From positions 1-32,368 of IMG/VR virus record IMGVR_UViG_3300048827_000008: a stretch of DNA of 32,368 nucleotides; one strand, written 5' to 3'. The position numbers were made by a program, and so were the translations under genes. Positions 1 through 29,763 of this stretch are shown here, piece by piece. This stretch comes from a virus. How positions within the stretch are numbered: position 1 is the stretch's first letter; each line of letters begins with the position of its first letter. The notes below the pieces were generated by a model. That model ran no database searches and was not told where the DNA came from. It was given only the letters and a program-made list of their open reading frames with translations.

Positions 1-235
1 AGCCACGACCGGCAACTCCGCGCGAGCCTCTGCAATGGGAAAGCAGTCGATTGCTGCATCTTTGGGGAGCAACGGCATGGCTAAGGGTTCAAAAGGCGGA
101 TGGCTGGTTCTCTCAGAGATTGGCGATGACCTGAAGATAAAGGCCGTTCGCGTTGCGCGCGTCGATGGGAAAAAGATCAAGGCCGACACGTATTACCAGA
201 TCAAGGGCGGCAAGTTTGTAGAGGTGAAATCATGA
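1..235 (+). CDS. C-terminal part of a phage repeat protein, cut by window start
   Basis: The frame is open from base 2, so the gene enters from the left. The visible 77 residues begin with quasi-repeats rich in Gly, Ala, Ser and Thr (ATTGNSARASAMGKQSIAAS), then a conserved ending (GGWLVLSEI, VDGKKIKADTYYQIKGGKFVEV). This layout matches a recognised phage family in which many short GxxAxA-type repeats, probably a beta-solenoid, precede a small C-terminal beta domain. Its function is not known to me. An internal ATG at 77 follows GGGGAG and could give a 52-residue product, but the repeats upstream of it belong to the same family, which argues for the longer partial gene. Its stop overlaps the next start as ATGA. 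Confidence 0.7.
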   Translation, partial: ATTGNSARASAMGKQSIAASLGSNGMAKGSKGGWLVLSEIGDDLKIKAVRVARVDGKKIKADTYYQIKGGKFVEVKS

Positions 236-360
236 CCACTCTTGCCCTCGCCTATCTCTGCATCTTCCTGTGCCTTGTAGTGGTTGCGCTGGAGATGGTG
301 CGCATCAGGAACGCACGACAGGTCTGGGCGCGGTTGCAGCGCCGAAGGAAGGGAGATTGA
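232..360 (+). CDS. small membrane protein, 42 aa
   Basis: The ATG overlaps the previous stop as ATGA, so translation is probably coupled. The product starts with a hydrophobic helix (about residues 3-21, LALAYLCIFLCLVVVALEM) followed by a strongly basic tail (RQVWARLQRRRK), as expected for a single-span inner-membrane protein with its C-terminus in the cytoplasm. I recognise no family. The coupling, the membrane pattern and the precise fit between neighbours support a real gene in spite of its size. Confidence 0.6.
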   Translation: MTTLALAYLCIFLCLVVVALEMVRIRNARQVWARLQRRRKGD

Positions 361-5859: not shown

Positions 5860-6030
5860 ATGGCAGAAAAAACGGAATCATCCGCGCGAGTGGAAATTGG
5901 GTTGCGGGCCGCGATAATCGCAAAGGCTGCGCTTGAGATGTTGGGAATGGGACCTCTAATCTGCCGCCTTCAAATCAAGGAAGTCGAGGAGAGGGTAACT
6001 GAAATGAAAGCATTTCTGAAATCGTTGTAG
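5860..6030 (+). CDS. small helical protein, 56 aa
   Basis: The start at 5860 follows GGGAGGGAAGCAA. The product is mainly helical (VEIGLRAAIIAKAALEMLGM, then QIKEVEERVTEMKAFLKSL), with an amphipathic C-terminal helix suggesting a small dimeric or partner-binding protein. No family is recognised. An upstream in-frame GTG at 5836 is less well placed. Confidence 0.5.
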   Translation: MAEKTESSARVEIGLRAAIIAKAALEMLGMGPLICRLQIKEVEERVTEMKAFLKSL

Positions 6031-6060
6031 CCCCCACGCGGGGCACGCAGGGAGGGGAAC

Positions 6061-6939
6061 ATGCAGGACAAGCTGAAAACGATCAAGAATGAACTCGCGG
6101 GGCTCATCAACAGTCATTCGCTGGAAAATGGCTCCAATACGCCGGATTTCATTCTAGCGGCCTATTTGTTGAATTGCCTGACAGTTTTCGACCACGCAAA
6201 CAACTGGAACACAGCTTGGCACTCAAAAGATGGAGTTCCTGCGGATTGGCGAGAAAACGGACCTCCGACCGCCGTCCGCGCCCACGATGCGGGGACGGAT
6301 AAGGGGCTCAGGAAAGCTCGCGTCGAGGATGCTTTCGATAAGATCGCCTGCGCAAACACCGTCACAATTTGTAGTTTGGACGAAATGGAAAGTATTGTGA
6401 ACCGCGCCCTCGATGGAGAATTTGACGCTGATTTACGAGTTCCTCCCGACTCCCACGCCGCCGAGAGCGCCGCGCAGCTTGACGCCGAGGACCCCGCAGA
6501 GCCGGGGGAGGATGTGCCATCGGGCTACATGAAGCTGGGGGCCGTTGAGAATGCGATACGCGCAGCTTGGGCAAGAGCCTGGTTCGGCGGGGTAACTCCA
6601 GAATCATTCGAGCAATTTCTCGCTTTAATCATGGCCCGTCTCGCCCCCAAGCCGTCGCTGGCCGAGGAGATGGAACCACAACTTGAATTGAAGTTGGAGA
6701 ACGTGAAGCCGCACGCCAGTCGAACGCGTGACCGCATCCTTGCGCTATTGCGCGAGAAAGAGTGGCTGGCCGGCTATGAGATTACTGACCAACTGTGCAT
6801 CCGGTACGGCATGGTTATCAGCGACACGAACGCGACTGCCCGTTTAAGGGAAGCACGGCGCACTGAATTCGGCGGTCACAACATCGTCAGCCGGCCGCGC
6901 GCAGGGAGCAGCGCATGGGAGTATGCCTGCCATGATTAA
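6061..6939 (+). CDS. fusion of a small phage domain with a C-terminal winged helix
   Basis: 292 residues; the start follows GGGAGGGGAAC. Residues 25-55 (NTPDFILAAYLLNCLTVFDHA, WNTAWHSKDG) match a short protein found alone in many phages. The C-terminal 75 residues (SRTRDRILALLREKEWLAGYEITDQL, DTNATARLREARR, GSSAWEY) fit a winged-helix DNA-binding domain. An acidic Pro/Glu-rich stretch lies between. It may act as a regulator of early genes, but the target cannot be read from the sequence. The stop overlaps the next gene by 8 bases. Confidence 0.6.
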   Translation: MQDKLKTIKNELAGLINSHSLENGSNTPDFILAAYLLNCLTVFDHANNWNTAWHSKDGVPADWRENGPPTAVRAHDAGTDKGLRKARVEDAFDKIACANTVTICSLDEMESIVNRALDGEFDADLRVPPDSHAAESAAQLDAEDPAEPGEDVPSGYMKLGAVENAIRAAWARAWFGGVTPESFEQFLALIMARLAPKPSLAEEMEPQLELKLENVKPHASRTRDRILALLREKEWLAGYEITDQLCIRYGMVISDTNATARLREARRTEFGGHNIVSRPRAGSSAWEYACHD

Positions 6940-23094: not shown

Positions 23095-26000
23095 TCAATC
23101 CTGATTCGCGGAATCGCGCCAAACCAGACCTCGCAAAGTGAACGGCAGGGGATCGCTCTGGGTCACATAAAACGTCGATTCGTCGCTCCAGTCGTCGTCC
23201 ATATCGCGCGTCAATTCAAGTGTACTCATTGCCGGAGGTTGCAACATTGTTCCCGGCCCGTAAGTGATGTCGTACATGTGGGCAGGATCGGTCCCGTACT
23301 CCCCCCCCATCGACTGATACACACTCAGCGTAACCCGATTGAGCTTTTGCTTCATACCCCGCGTCGTAGATCCCTGCGCGGACATCACAGGATTTGTCGG
23401 TCGAATCGTTATCTGGTAGGGAATCCCGATGGTGATGAGGTTGGAGAAGTAGGGAAACACTACCGTATCCGAGGTCACTATCGTCGGCTGAAGAATCACT
23501 GCACCGTCGCCCACCGCCACAACCTGTTGACCGAGAAGGTAGCTCATCCCAGTCACCTGATTGGTCACCTCCCGGACCGTTCCACCGCCCGTATAGACGC
23601 CAAACAAAGTTGAGTCCATTCCAACCAACTGGAATTCGTTTAGAACTGCATTGACCACCGTGTAGGCTTGAGTCGCATCCTGATTGATTTGCGTCATGCC
23701 TTCTACGCCCGATATCTGCACCGTCATTCCGTCTGTAAAACTGTGACCGGGAGCCTGGACCTCAACAGGAGTTCCATTGTTGATTCCCGTGATGGCCACA
23801 GGTGGCAATCCTTGCCACTGCTGACCACAGTTCACAAAGAAGGCATTCGAGAGTTGACCGAACAATTCTTGCGGCATGAAGTATTCGACGTACCGCATTG
23901 TCACGCCATTGATGGTCCGGTTGACGACAACGGAGATTTGATCCTCTATATTCGCTCCGCTGATGACCGCAACAGATTCAATGCTTCCCCCTTGGGTTTG
24001 CATATTTATGCGGAACCACGCATACACCTGATCCTGCGTGTTAAAGACAAGTCCGATCATTTGCCCATCATTGCGCACGGCCCAGAAAATCGGATAAGGC
24101 TCCGCCTGAAACGCGGTCTGTGCGATGCCGGATTGAGCCGAGGACGGACCTAGAGTTATGTTGCGGTTGAGGCGTGTCAGGTCGAAGTTGTCCCACTGGT
24201 TAGACACGAAGTTGAAGACCAAGAATGTCACGATTCTGGTGGACCGAGAGACGAAAATTGCTGATCCATTCACCAGTTGCGGCTGCAAGGGACTGACCCC
24301 GAGGTTGCTTTGCAGGGCCGCATTTACATTGGTTTGGCTCAGGGACGATCCGTTCGATCCCTCCACAACCCACACGCCTCCAGCACTGCCGATCAATAGA
24401 GCGTTGGGGGTTCCAATCATGCTGAGGAGTTGGTTTAGTTTGTTCGCAACCAAGGTGTATTGGAAAGCGTAATCGTCTTCGTTGGGATCGCAGATGAAAT
24501 CGTAGTAATCATCTTGAACACTGCCATTGATCTGCACGGGATTGTTGTCGCTTCCTCCGATGGTCAAGCGCTCTTGGTAGAGAGTTCCGCAAGCTGGATA
24601 GTCTCCCGCCGCTGCGAAGAATGGAAAGACCGCGACTGCAAATCCACCGCTCACATAGGCTAAGTATCCGGTGGTATCGACTAGATTCCCGGTGTTGGCG
24701 TCAAGAAGGTCGAAAGAGCAAGTCCCGTCGCCATTGTTCACAAAACTATCGACGTAAAATTCCCCTTGATTAAGTTCGACCATCCCGCCGATGAGATTCA
24801 TGTAGATTCGCTGATTGTTGCTAAAAACTGTAGTGGTCGCCGCAATCGTAACGACACCAGGGTTTGCCTTCGTGATCCCGGTGATCGACTGTCCGAGGCC
24901 GTTGTATCCGGTCTTCACAACGTCCAAAGTTCCGCGATATGTGGAACCATTGCCTAATGTTCCGGGGAGCGCTGGTGCATACTGCCATGAATTAGCGGCG
25001 AGTCTTTTAATCTGCGCCGGCGGATAGTTGGGATGGAAGACCCACAACACGTCCGCGCTTTGCGTTGAGCAATCGAGAGCGAATAGGTCGGCCTCGGCAT
25101 ACGGCGTGGTTAGCTCAATCGGCGGTTCCGCGAGGCTGGTTCCGTCTTCCCAAAACGCCGAGTTCCACGACAGTCCTGTCGCTCCAAAAACTAGAGGGAA
25201 TTCATCGAATTGGTTGTTTGCGGTACATTCTGCTATCCAGTTTTGCGTGTTCCATCCCAGGGGGGCGTAGACAAGAGAAGGTACTGCGATCCACGGAGCC
25301 GCATAATAAAGAGCATTCGGAGTTACCGTCCAACCCGATAAAAGAACCTGGTTGCTCGTCGAAGCATTCAGTTCCGATAAAGCTCTAATTGCAGTCTCAA
25401 TCAGGTTTGCAGCGTTGTTCGCTGCCGTTGTTTTAGCCAGCGCGATATTGATGCCTTGGTTTGGCGAACTCCCGGTAATCGTGACGCTAAGAACATCAGA
25501 AGTATTGGTCGTGAAAGTAATTGGAACTGTCTGAGCATTAGCCGTTCCGTAGGGCGCCGCGATGTAGAGTCCCTTGCGGTTTGGAGTCTGCCCTATGAAA
25601 GCAAAGAATGGACCCACCAGTGACAGGTTTGCAGCGACATACGCAGTCGCCGGATCATAGTTGAGGGCAGTGGGAAGAGTGACCGCCAGCCCCAAAGACC
25701 ATGATCCTTCGCTCGCCCCTTCCCAGATACGGATAAGTCCCGCTGAGAGTTCGAGGATCGCCCCCTGAATTGTCGAAAACTGGAACGGGACGAGACGACT
25801 TTTTCCGCTCGAACCCGTCATCATGCTCTCGCTTGCGATAGTCTGCGAGTTGTTTACTATGTAGGTTCCCGTATAGCCAAGCCCCGAACCCAGAGCAGTG
25901 ATGACGGTTCCCGCGGCGATGCCTGTTCCGTAGAGCGTCTGCCCAACACGGAGGCTCCCCTGCGCTACGGCTGTCACGGTGAGGGTCGTAGTGGCGATTG

Positions 26001-26214
26001 ATCCGGTGAACATAGAACCGCCGCGGGCGGAAACCCCAGCGAAGTAGGTTCCGGGCATCTTCTTGGCACCGCCCTCGACGAGCGGTACGGCGTTTTCTAA
26101 AATTTTGCAGGCAGAATTATACTTGGCGATGTCATCTCGGAAGTCTACGAGAGGACTGCACTCCCCGGTGTTAAATGATTGACGTACAACGGCTAGCTTT
26201 CCACCACTAGGCAT
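23095..26214 (-). CDS. tail nozzle protein, gp12-like, with inserted domain
   Basis: 1039 residues; the start follows GGAGAGTCT. The opening ([51 protein letters not shown]) is the typical start of phage tail-tube/nozzle proteins of the T7 gp12 type, where SPL...R.D...Y..G......N..P...G...RRPGT is conserved. Residues 70-133 form a foreign-looking beta module. The chain then resumes with [29 protein letters not shown], as in family members. Near residues 815-890 ([36 protein letters not shown]) lies a domain often annotated in phages as FCCH-like. The protein forms the tail end through which DNA leaves. Confidence 0.8.
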
Positions 26215-26247
26215 AGACTCTCCTATTTACATTATTATTTATTCCTG

Positions 26248-26994
26248 CTACCAGCGGAAATAGCGGCCGGCGTCTACCCAGGATGTGCTCCCGGCTTCGT
26301 CTTCGCTGAAATCGAGGCATTCGTTCTGGGCCTCGGCAGAATTCAAGCTGTCTTTGTACATCTGCTGCATCAGTTCAAACTTCGATTTGTCCTCCGTGAC
26401 GCCGATCGACAACTCCATCGCCAATCGATTACAGAGGCAGTTCACGAATCCTGGCATCAGTTGTGTGTAATCGGAGATCAGTCGGATGTAGTTAATCATC
26501 GCCGGACCCCGGAAACCCATGTAATCCGTGAGCGCGTACCTCCCCGCAGGAAAGGGCAAGGAATACGGTGTCGGCGGGCATGTGATCGGCGACGACCAGC
26601 CAGCGGTAAGAGTCTCGATGACGTAAGGAGTGTCGTAGGGCCAGAACGGAGGATCTTCCCGCCTATACCATCCTTCGCCCTCTGGACCCCAGAGCCAGGC
26701 GAAGTGGTGTCTGTCCCTGGGGCGCTTGTGCGGGCGCACGAATCGGAGGAGGTCAGAGGGTAGAGCCCATGCAGCCTTGTAGGAATAGAGGGGGATGACT
26801 GGGCTTAGCTCAAGCTGGACTCGAGTCTTGGCGAATTTCCAGTCGCGCTCCGCCATTACCTCTCCAAACACGAAATCCCAAACCGCGAGACACTTAACGG
26901 CATTGGGGGAATTCTCGTTGACATTTGTAATTTGCCCACGAGCTCCTATTCTCCCCAGTGCAACATTACATATGCTGGTTTGTGAATAATTCAC
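26248..26994 (-). CDS. tail adaptor protein, gp11-like
   Basis: 248 residues from GTG 26994, after GGAGGAAGC. The protein starts MNYSQTSICNVALGRIGARGQI and continues NENSPNAVKCLAVWDFVFGEVMAERDWKFAKTRVQL, the usual layout of the tail tubular protein A family (T7 gp11), which joins portal and nozzle. A longer middle segment rich in Pro/Trp (RPRDRHHFAWLWGPEGEGW, PPFWPYDTPYV) departs from the shortest family members. The C-terminal helix (NRLAMELSIGVTEDKSKFELMQQMY) is also typical. The start overlaps the 3' end of the HNH gene by 29 bases. Confidence 0.85.
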   Translation of the reverse strand: MNYSQTSICNVALGRIGARGQITNVNENSPNAVKCLAVWDFVFGEVMAERDWKFAKTRVQLELSPVIPLYSYKAAWALPSDLLRFVRPHKRPRDRHHFAWLWGPEGEGWYRREDPPFWPYDTPYVIETLTAGWSSPITCPPTPYSLPFPAGRYALTDYMGFRGPAMINYIRLISDYTQLMPGFVNCLCNRLAMELSIGVTEDKSKFELMQQMYKDSLNSAEAQNECLDFSEDEAGSTSWVDAGRYFRW

Positions 26995-27487
26995 GCTTCC
27001 TCCGTCGCATCTGGTGAAGGCTTATGAACTGGCAGTTCATGCAAAGGATACGGAATCCGGAAGGGAATCCTTCTCTCTTTAGCCACTGGTAGAAATTTAG
27101 TCCCGCGTTGAGCCTGATACTTTTTCTATGTGCGTTTCCTCCTCCATCAATGTGATCCACACTTAAACATGGAATCCTGTCCTCGTTGCACAACGCACAC
27201 TTCATCGTACCGTGGCTATACTTTTCTACCACTAACGTCTTCAGTTTAACCTTGTGCCGCCGAGAATTCTCTTCAACACGAGACTTCTTGACTGGATCAG
27301 CACGATTGGCCCGATCTCTAACTCGGGCTTTTTCGCGAAGTTCCTCAAGATGTTTTTCTTTATAGGTTTGGATGTAACCGAGAAATCTTTCGCGGACTTC
27401 AGGACGCTTTCTATACTCTCGCTGATAGTCTCTCGCGTATGCCCTAGCAGCATCTTTCTGGGATTCAGATTTATCGCCGTAGTTCAA
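26966..27487 (-). CDS. HNH homing-type endonuclease
   Basis: 173 residues, starting at TTG 27487 after GGGGGCAGG; no in-frame ATG occurs until residue 95. The basic N-terminal 90 residues (YARDYQREYRKRPEVRERF) probably bind DNA. The HNH core is complete: CALC (97-100), SVDHIDGGGNAHR (D111, H112, H120), NFYQWLKREGFPSGFRILCMNCQ (C149, C152). These selfish or recombination-promoting nucleases cut DNA and are common between structural genes. Overlap of its 3' end with the tail adaptor gene suggests insertion into an existing operon. Confidence 0.85.
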   Translation of the reverse strand: MNYGDKSESQKDAARAYARDYQREYRKRPEVRERFLGYIQTYKEKHLEELREKARVRDRANRADPVKKSRVEENSRRHKVKLKTLVVEKYSHGTMKCALCNEDRIPCLSVDHIDGGGNAHRKSIRLNAGLNFYQWLKREGFPSGFRILCMNCQFISLHQMRRRKRELFTNQHM

Positions 27488-27495
27488 CCTGCCCC

Positions 27496-27951
27496 CTACG
27501 CCGGGACAGTTGCAGTCTCGGCAGTATTCCTGTGACTCTTGTTGTGGACTCTAATGGCGTACAGGTTCGGAAGAACCTCACCGCATGTTTTGCAGGTGAA
27601 TGTCTTGCCCTTCTTCTTCCCCCGTTTTTCGATCACAACCGACTCGTCAGAAACCACTTCCTCGACGGCCTCAGTCTTGTGAACAGACCTCTTGTGAACA
27701 GACCGGGTGTGAGTTCCAAGATCATTCAGAGATTCGAAAGGCTTCTGGCATTGCTTGCAGATGAAACCGCCGGGAGCGGGACTAACTCCAGTTCCGGTCA
27801 TCGTTCGGTCGAACTCGAAAACGTAAATATTCCCGATCTTCATAACAGCAAGAGTACCGTCGTGCTCGATCTCATAAGTCTCGCCGGGATAGAACGAGAA
27901 ACACTTCGGACTATCCCATGCGAGAGAGATGCATTTGGCTTGCACCTTCAT
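27496..27951 (-). CDS. C2H2 zinc-finger protein
   Basis: 151 residues from ATG 27951, which overlaps the cement-protein stop as ATGA and follows GGTGGGGAAC; a longer reading from 27981 is rejected. Residues 1-50 look like a small beta domain ([27 protein letters not shown]). Two classical fingers follow: C65-x2-C68-x12-H81-x4-H86 and C120-x2-C123-x12-H136-x3-H140, joined by a charged linker with GKKKGK. C2H2 fingers bind DNA, RNA or protein; they are uncommon in phages. The position after the capsid genes says late expression. A 15-bp tandem repeat lies just after finger 1. Confidence 0.8.
27675..27704. repeat. perfect 15-bp tandem duplication
   Basis: TCTTGTGAACAGACC occurs twice without a gap (27675-27689 and 27690-27704). 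In the zinc-finger protein it adds one copy of RSVHK, giving three histidines spaced by five residues at the end of finger 1. Perfect identity suggests a recent slippage event. Confidence 0.8.
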
Positions 27952-28706
27952 TGTTCCCCACCTGTCTTGGGTCCAAACCATGAGGTCAGGTATCCCGTTG
28001 TCGCTGCGCCGCCGGCATTGGCCGCATACCAGCGCAGAAACTCCAGAATGGACGCTCCGTTGACGGGAATGAAGTAATGCGCTCCATTCACCCCCAACTG
28101 CGCCGCACTCAAGGTTCTCGCCGCGATGATGTTGGTTGCGGTGCCAATGAGTGCGCCCGTCGCCGATGACGTGAGAACAGAGAAGGCGATGCTGGTCGTC
28201 GCGGCCGTCAACATGGGCGCCGTGATGACCAGGTGAATCCCCATCTCAACCCCGCCATCCCCAACGACTTCAGGCGGGAAGGTGTAACCCTTCTCCGCGT
28301 AGGACGGGAACTGCGGAAGCCACGGGTAACTTGCCCCCGTATTCGGTGCCCCGAAGTCGAGTTCGTTGTTCGAGTACTGCGCGCTTCCCGTCAGAGCATC
28401 GCCTAGCGTGTTCGGTCCAAACGTCATGGCAGTGCCGCCGGAGACGGTTTGCGAGATGTTGACGATGTAGGTTGTGCCTCCACCAAGACCGATGCCGGTC
28501 CCGAGGGCGGTAATGAAGGTTCCGGCAGTGACTCCGGGACCATTCACACTCTGCCCAACCACGATCTGACCGGTGGTCAAGGTCGTGACAGTAAGGGTGG
28601 TTCCGGAGATGGCGCAACTGGAAGCTGCGTTGAGTGTCGAAGTGATCGGACCGGAGACGGAGGTTCCGGAGCCGTGCAACATTGCAACTGCATCTGTGAC
28701 TGGCAT
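27948..28706 (-). CDS. capsid cement/decoration protein, Bbp16-like, with inserted domain
   Basis: 252 residues; the start follows AAGGAGGGACAC. It lies directly after the major capsid gene, the place of the Bbp16 capsid cement protein of BPP-1-like phages. The C-terminal two thirds fit that family ([65 protein letters not shown]). Residues 31-95 ([49 protein letters not shown]) are a separate beta module that also occurs in the nozzle protein. The protein should stabilise the capsid from outside. Confidence 0.7.
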
Positions 28707-28716
28707 GTGTCCCTCC

Positions 28717-29763
28717 TTAGCTCAGGACCGTTTCGGTTGAGAGAATCTTTTCGGCGACGTAGATCGGAATGTTCTGGAACTTGGTCACCGACCGTCCAAA
28801 CACATCCGTCTCATTGGCGTTGAAATTGGTGTAGGCGTTGAGCTTCTGCGATACCGCGCGGATGTCGATTTGCGTCTTCAGCGCGCGGTTGACCAGAATC
28901 ACCGTGCCGGAGCCCTCACCGCCCCGTGGCAGTTGATTCTTGGCCGCGATAAAGACGTTCTCGTCGAAGTTGTTTGCGGAAAGGATCGTCGGATTGATGT
29001 TCGCGATGCGCTGCACGGCACGTTCATCAGCGATCTGGATTCCCATATACCAGGTCAGCAAAGTGCCGAGAACCTCGTACATGGCATTTATTCCTATCGT
29101 TCCGAGCGAACTAGCGAGTTGCTTGGTGTACTGCCCAAGGTCTTCCACACTCAAGCCAGCGGGCGTATTGGGAGGATAAATCCCGTACACCGAGTCGTCG
29201 CCGAACTCGATCATCCATGCGCTTGTAACAGAGCCATTGGTAGCGCCGCCCTTCCACACGTTCGGCTGCCAGCTCGTGTCTCCGTTTGGGTAGGATGCAG
29301 TGGTGTTGAAGCGGGTAGCCAGGCCATTGAATCCTCCGGGGTTGGTCGCCAGGTTTCCGTAAATCAGGTTGGACTCCATCAATTGAAACAGTCCCTCTAC
29401 GTGGTTCATGTCCTGGTCCGCTCGCCATGCGTTCGGATCGTTCTGGAGCATCCAGAGACCCTTGTCCACTTCGCTTCGATCCTCGAAAAGAGCGATGGGG
29501 TCGTTGATGGGAGTGTTCTTCGATGTCGTCGGCTTGATTCCCTCGTTCCAGCGGCGCGTCGAGGCCGTGGGAAGAGAATCGGTGCGGACGGCAATGTTCG
29601 AAAGGATGTTGTTTGAGGGTTTGAGTGGCATCATCCTGACCAGCGGTGTCATGCGGTCAAGGATGCGTGTGGGGAGAACGAATCTCGCCCCTGCATCGGC
29701 GGACGAATAATTCGCCACGATGTCGGTAAACGTGGAATATCCCAGTTGGGAAATATCGGCCAT
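28717..29763 (-). CDS. major capsid protein, epsilon15 gp7 / BPP-1 Bbp17-like
   Basis: 348 residues; the start follows a perfect AAAGGAGG. The N-terminal region ([40 protein letters not shown]), [15 protein letters not shown], and the C-terminal half ([54 protein letters not shown]) match major capsid proteins of podoviruses related to epsilon15 and BPP-1, which have the HK97 fold. Position between scaffold and cement genes supports this. No N-terminal cleavage motif is evident. Confidence 0.85.

Follow-up and report, generated by a model that had tools for sequence, protein, structure and literature searches.

Immunoglobulin-like (Ig-like) domains are the textbook promiscuous surface module of phages. 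According to the excerpts of published accounts used here, they occur in fibre, baseplate, tail, head and decoration proteins of about 25% of tailed double-stranded DNA phages, decoration proteins are linked to carbohydrate and mucus binding (both PMC7602432), tail and neck proteins can contain RIFT-related domains (PMC10684548), and the capsid of phage Bridgette has dimeric cement proteins close to the penton (PMC13033339). These excerpts, which treat cement proteins, Ig-like and RIFT-related domains and the shuffling of domains in general, do not name the domain reported below, and no title or abstract opening in the literature searched names it. We analysed IMG/VR virus record IMGVR_UViG_3300048827_000008, 32,368 bases from a short-tailed phage (the whole stretch is hereafter the window), in which the capsid cement protein and the tail nozzle each carry a copy of the same module of ∼68 aa. 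The phenomenon is broader than these two copies, since the module lies in many unrelated virion proteins and in a few bacterial surface proteins. It is a second promiscuous phage surface domain, apparently unnamed and without a Pfam or NCBIfam model.

The module and its two host proteins

The two module copies, the conserved flanks of the nozzle insertion and the two host genes are as follows (AF2, AlphaFold2; pLDDT, predicted local distance difference test; rmsd, root-mean-square deviation).

25816..26019, minus strand: module copy in the nozzle, residues 66-133 (profile and pairwise searches; AF2 strands 67-85, 93-95, 104-107 and 116-133)
28422..28631, minus strand: module copy in the cement protein, residues 26-95 (profile searches; AF2 pLDDT blocks 74-97, mostly ≥90)
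26035..26058, minus strand: upstream flank of the nozzle insertion, MPGTYFAG, residues 53-60 (conserved columns; AF2 strand 56-61, the first hairpin strand)
25783..25803, minus strand: downstream flank of the nozzle insertion, KSRLVPF, residues 138-144 (conserved columns; AF2 strand 140-145, the second hairpin strand)
27948..28706, minus strand: capsid cement protein, 252 aa, a jellyroll of the BPP-1 kind (VIA-align to 3j4u_H, Z 13.9, rmsd 2.7, 122 aligned; to 8cjz_A, Z 12.3)
23095..26214, minus strand: tail nozzle, 1039 aa, with a beta-propeller core (phrog_376, E 4.6e-123; PDB 8ck1_A Tail Nozzle, E 6.2e-43)

A two-sequence BLASTP comparison of the cement and nozzle proteins found 26/50 identical residues (E 6e-5), and the local BLOSUM62 score of the two modules was 158, against a best score of 76 in 1000 shuffles. 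The modules are rich in threonine (21%), glycine (17%) and serine (11%), a composition that would favour convergence of non-homologous, low-complexity stretches. However, the module-family profile at E≤1e-4 matched none of 7,848 reversed open reading frames (ORFs), 7,848 shuffled ORFs or 289 ORFs with their modules shuffled in place, the same pattern is conserved over 68 profile columns in unrelated hosts, and the fold is predicted with confidence; convergence is thus refuted by the decoys and extremely improbable. A six-frame hidden Markov model search found no third copy in the window, so its other Thr/Gly-rich proteins do not match by composition. Judged by sequence, the shared segment is confirmed as a real homologous module, which bears out the original prediction of one module shared by cement and nozzle at these positions. 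Charged residues (D, E, K, R and H) make up about 3% of the modules, against about 14% of the rest of the same proteins.

The names that the original prediction gave to the two host proteins were also right, as judged from structure matches for the cement (3j4u_H and 8cjz_A) and from 8ck1_A and phrog_376 matches for the nozzle. The AF2 model of the cement protein (mean pLDDT 79.8) has a jellyroll core that covers most of the solved BPP-1 chain H (122 of its 140 residues aligned) and also resembles the Carin1 cement 8cjz_A; moreover, the PF20911 capsid gene lies directly upstream. The solved BPP-1 and Carin1 chains have 140 and 129 residues, in contrast to 252 in the window protein, and since the BPP-1 alignment spans 4..252 with 122 residues aligned, about half of the window cement has no counterpart there. 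For the nozzle, phmmer related residues 536-1032, the best stretch, to 8ck1_A. Its AF2 model is weaker (mean pLDDT 67.8, predicted template modelling score 0.47); in the structure ranking 8ck1_A came first (VIA Z 22.1, but rmsd 22.3), followed by many beta-propellers, and with these values the exact position of the module on the propeller is a guess. Two stretches of the nozzle, one of them residues 823-883, match the Pfam model of the ubiquitin E1 FCCH domain (PF16190, E 2.6e-12). A BFVD structure search with the cement model listed A0A6J5SIT1 and A0A1V0SCQ2, entries for a major capsid protein of the HK97 type (identity 40% across 72 columns) and a collagen-repeat protein from a giant virus (E 7.6e-6, rmsd 14.6).

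In the cement model the module is a confidently predicted small beta fold of two long and two short strands. Its ends in the models are the outer ends of the two long strands, and it can therefore sit on a hairpin. Residues 23-100 of the cement model aligned by VIA-align with residues 241-330 of eEF1A, which we take to be domain II (5o8w_A, Z 7.2, rmsd 2.8, 76 aligned), and several elongation-factor chains aligned similarly (Z about 7 over 76 residues), a likeness to EF-Tu domain II and RIFT-related barrels. The module part also aligned with PDB 8eci_1 of Arthrobacter phage Bridgette (Z 6.7, rmsd 1.7, 61 residues, 31% identity). These model-based matches are leads, as a Z below 8 can reflect a common arrangement. 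The best PDB match of the cement profile was an elongation factor (E 0.47 over the module), which is not significant and agrees with the fold match. By sequence, none of 39 module members (set A1) matched Pfam GTP_EFTU_D2 (PF03144), and hhalign against five EF-type sequences found nothing (E 0.74 over 5 columns), a weak test with a thin profile. PDB sequence searches with module profiles gave best E values of 0.6 and 0.32 for short pieces of unrelated chains, taken as chance.

No Pfam family covers the module in the 39 sequences scanned, and no NCBIfam family in the 67 sequences scanned (one stray match), 67 of 70 picked sequences forming module alignment A4. All 39 A1 members matched both PHROG 38233 (895-odd positions, module at about 555-620) and PHROG 21413 (595 positions, module at about 398-465). 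Each of these holds the module at one place, but both are whole-protein families, so that a match to them names the module and not its host protein. Like phage Ig-like domains, the module is a small beta domain inserted optionally in several classes of virion protein; unlike them, it has ∼68 aa and nests inside itself. No Ig or Big Pfam model reached its cut-off in the 39 A1 members, the sole Ig-like match being PF10342 in one member (E 0.059), and the module-range neighbours among the structure matches listed, for the AF2 model only, have folds other than the Ig beta-sandwich (translation-factor domain II barrels). By analogy the module appears to behave like the promiscuous Ig-like domains, and we do not file it with them because the sequence relation is missing.

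Spread, alleles and exchange between phages

A 68-aa consensus search of viral contigs confirmed relatives in at least 450 of 600 candidate stretches, from which 80 loci were kept, and the same consensus found at least 51 loci from 596 candidate stretches in bacterial genome contigs. At least 289 ORFs in 190 loci (numbered with an L below) carry 420 module matches; these ORFs were gathered by searching for the module or the nozzle, and both counts are partly non-independent, since L001-L004 and L012 were dropped as duplicates while overlapping contigs remain (for example, L005/L013 and L047/L080). With the modules masked, the ORFs form ∼47 host groups by single linkage, which may split true families, and in 91 of the 190 loci the modules belong to more than one host group. 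PHROG matches of 20 representatives name adaptor/head-closure, minor head, baseplate wedge, tail sheath, head protein, virion structural, head-protease and unknown-function families, and the hosts of phage-like representatives named by PHROGs or Pfam are all virion parts; in L159, L161, L167 and L173 PHROGs match the module alone and no host family. One locus (L169) has the module in four adjacent ORFs, a tail sheath and a head protein among them. Bacterial proteins with the module include a SusD lipoprotein whose neighbour is a TonB receptor (L191), a GH5 cellulase (L160), a DUF6701 protein that also has a lectin-like Laminin_G_3 domain (L161) and a secreted protein of Bacteroidota, where five copies stand in tandem (L183). 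The L161 gene adjoins pilin-like genes, presumably of an MSHA-type pilus. In GenBank phages the window module matches two records; BLAST with the consensus, the L029 module and the whole cement protein found none there, and none in plasmids for the module, searches in which the low-complexity filter may hide it.

In cement, adaptor and nozzle the module is an optional insertion, and relatives with and without it exist (viral contig scans yielded nozzle relatives at 64 loci and cement relatives at 9). At the nozzle site, the spacing from MPGTYF to RLVPF was scored in 43 distinct sequences by a regular expression that misses some loci (for example, L010, L011, L024 and L059). Eight sequences are empty (10-12 aa), 25 hold a single module (76-85 aa), three a module within a module (145-157 aa) and seven a module plus another domain (224-247 aa). 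In the three module-in-module alleles (L014, L016 and L019) a whole second module occupies the loop between module strands 3 and 4. That loop also receives the other domains of the longest class (L008, L027, L033, L065 and L073), except in L018 and L058, where the other domain lies in the turn of the module's first strand. Cement relatives without the module have 163-186 aa from the start codon (133-134 in L055 and L056). Seven of the 43 tree members have the module in the adaptor (L010, L011, L014, L015, L025, L054 and L071), inserted at two different loops with the flanks intact. An insertion between MPGTYFAG and KSRLVPF had been proposed, and nozzle relatives indeed hold either 10-12 or 76-247 aa there; with many relatives lacking the module, the segment is not an integral part of the core fold in all family members.

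Two side observations concern the nozzle. The other nested domains have ∼110-165 aa (L008 8400-8741, L018 4079-4525, L027 6376-6801 and L073 6382-6870) and were not credibly matched by any Pfam or PHROG family. The nozzles of L054 and L071 have two modules inserted further along, around ORF residues 244-423.

We next consider gain and loss on a tree of 43 nozzles, left from 58 long ones after 15 near-duplicates were removed by hand. Its columns are those occupied in 80% or more of the rows, so that most optional inserts drop out although columns of the commonest insert may remain. Presence changes at least six times at the nozzle site (33 with, 8 without, 2 unscored; L024 and L059 set to filled by hand), at least seven times in the cement (24 with, 12 without, 7 unscored) and at least five times in the adaptor (7 with, 36 without). 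Cement presence was scored as a length >200 aa, which counts divergent inserts (L021, L030, L045 and L050) falling below the profile threshold of E≤1e-4.

In a tree of 64 modules the majority of cement copies fall together in one supported group (95/83 for 10 rows), and the best-scoring neighbour in other genomes is at the same site for 39 of 39 nozzle, 11 of 13 cement and 4 of 6 adaptor copies; six nozzle copies at other sites are nearest to a nozzle copy (four) or a cement copy (two). The window nozzle copy scores 236 with nozzle copies of other phages and the window cement copy 274 with other cement copies, compared with 158 between the two. Because nearest neighbours are mostly from the same site, the copies mostly descend with their site, and those of the window are old. 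Mobility, as originally predicted, stands in the form of repeated gain or loss across relatives and falls for recent transfer between the window's own two copies: blastn of the two genes found only a 27-nt stretch with 23 identities and weak pieces. With the nearest copies in the same host protein elsewhere and weak DNA similarity, a recent duplication between them was rejected.

Exchange between phages is visible in close pairs. The empty L041 and the filled L036 are 96-100% identical in 50-nt windows from position 6200 on, compared with 50-82% over 5900-6199 (the nozzle gene start and module region), where L036 has 207 nt more. L041 is also 99.6% identical to L061, which is filled, over 5,931 bases up to the nozzle gene start, after which the two diverge. 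On the nucleotide alignment, the L041/L036 junction has the look of homologous recombination, in either direction, at the conserved strand that follows the module.

Role of the module and rival explanations

The module is optional, self-contained, stackable and exchangeable between phages. As to its role, the reading that we put forward, believed and doubted in equal measure, is that of a promiscuous, self-folding beta insert domain of ∼68 residues that lies in exposed loops, projects outward and makes weak surface contacts, most likely with glycans. It would be inserted in exposed loops of particle and cell-surface proteins of phages and some bacteria, and would project from cement and nozzle into solvent; since its turns accept whole additional domains, a solvent-facing place on the hairpin tip is suggested. 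Present in many copies on capsid and tail, it may, less certainly, provide a weak, charge-poor contact, most likely with glycans, which would hold the virion near cells or polymer, as proposed for the Ig-like domains of other phages. Exchange would need no dedicated mobile element and would proceed by homologous recombination across conserved host-gene flanks. Outward display is a well-founded inference, and adhesion to a shared ligand such as mucus or polysaccharide, as the original prediction suggested, is plausible by analogy, with the glycan-related bacterial surface proteins and the likeness to Ig-like domains as hints. A more specific picture is somewhat less likely than not: an undescribed, very widespread insert common to unrelated virion proteins of tailed phages and bacterial glycan-handling surface proteins, nesting outward, presenting many weak adhesive copies on capsid and tail of one phage, and swapped like alleles with other phages.

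Several observations weigh against this reading. Its outward position is deduced and not read from coordinates. Its conserved residues are mostly at turn and core positions (G, T, V, I and Y), as the fold alone would give. Copies in different proteins of one genome have a median identity of 49%, the same as across loci and hosts (median 49%), so that no constraint matching them to a common ligand is apparent. The three sites also vary independently within the phage family, many relatives lacking the module at one or another, and together with the missing within-genome match this disfavours a tightly shared ligand.

The patchy presence of the module, the nesting of inserts within inserts, the very wide host range and conservation that looks like fold only would all suit near-neutral accretion. 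On this account the module, being soluble, poor in charge, self-folding and with its ends close together, does no harm at hairpins, and recombination spreads it although it has no function under selection. However, the mainly-cement group (95/83, 10 rows) has been kept over long divergence with reading frame and fold intact, and neutral inserts would generally be expected to decay or be lost in compact phage genomes; we regard this account as unlikely, though a genuine alternative. That the module instead acts as a brace, adding contacts between neighbouring subunits (cement-capsid, nozzle-adaptor or fibres) and stabilising the particle, is consistent with a cement protein being one host and with the alignment of the module model to Bridgette 8eci_1, if chain 1 there is the penton-near cement described in the excerpt of PMC13033339. 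Yet close relatives lack the module at each site, and whole extra domains accepted in its turns suit free space better than a tight interface; we regard bracing as unlikely, if a serious contender.

Whichever role applies, adhesion included, it should be addressable by comparing close phages that differ at the nozzle site, where empty, single, nested and composite alleles occur naturally. Recognizing the module would also let annotators stop naming unrelated proteins tail fibres on its account.

Neighbouring genes of the window

The structural gene order on the minus strand is major capsid protein, the 252-aa cement protein, a C2H2-finger protein, an HNH-like gene, the adaptor and the 1039-aa nozzle. 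Two further features were assigned.

28717..29763, minus strand: major capsid protein (PF20911 GP7, E 3e-62; context only)
26248..26994, minus strand: head-tail adaptor, 248 aa, without the module in the window (phrog_394, E 4.5e-31)

The HNH-endonuclease-like ORF within this block (26966-27487, minus strand; phrog_2255, E 7e-7), which has no Pfam match, is possibly a homing-type gene. Between cement and adaptor, a 161-aa protein (27496-27981, minus strand) has two C2H2 zinc fingers (PF13912, E 2.9e-13), and L030 encodes a similar protein in the same place.

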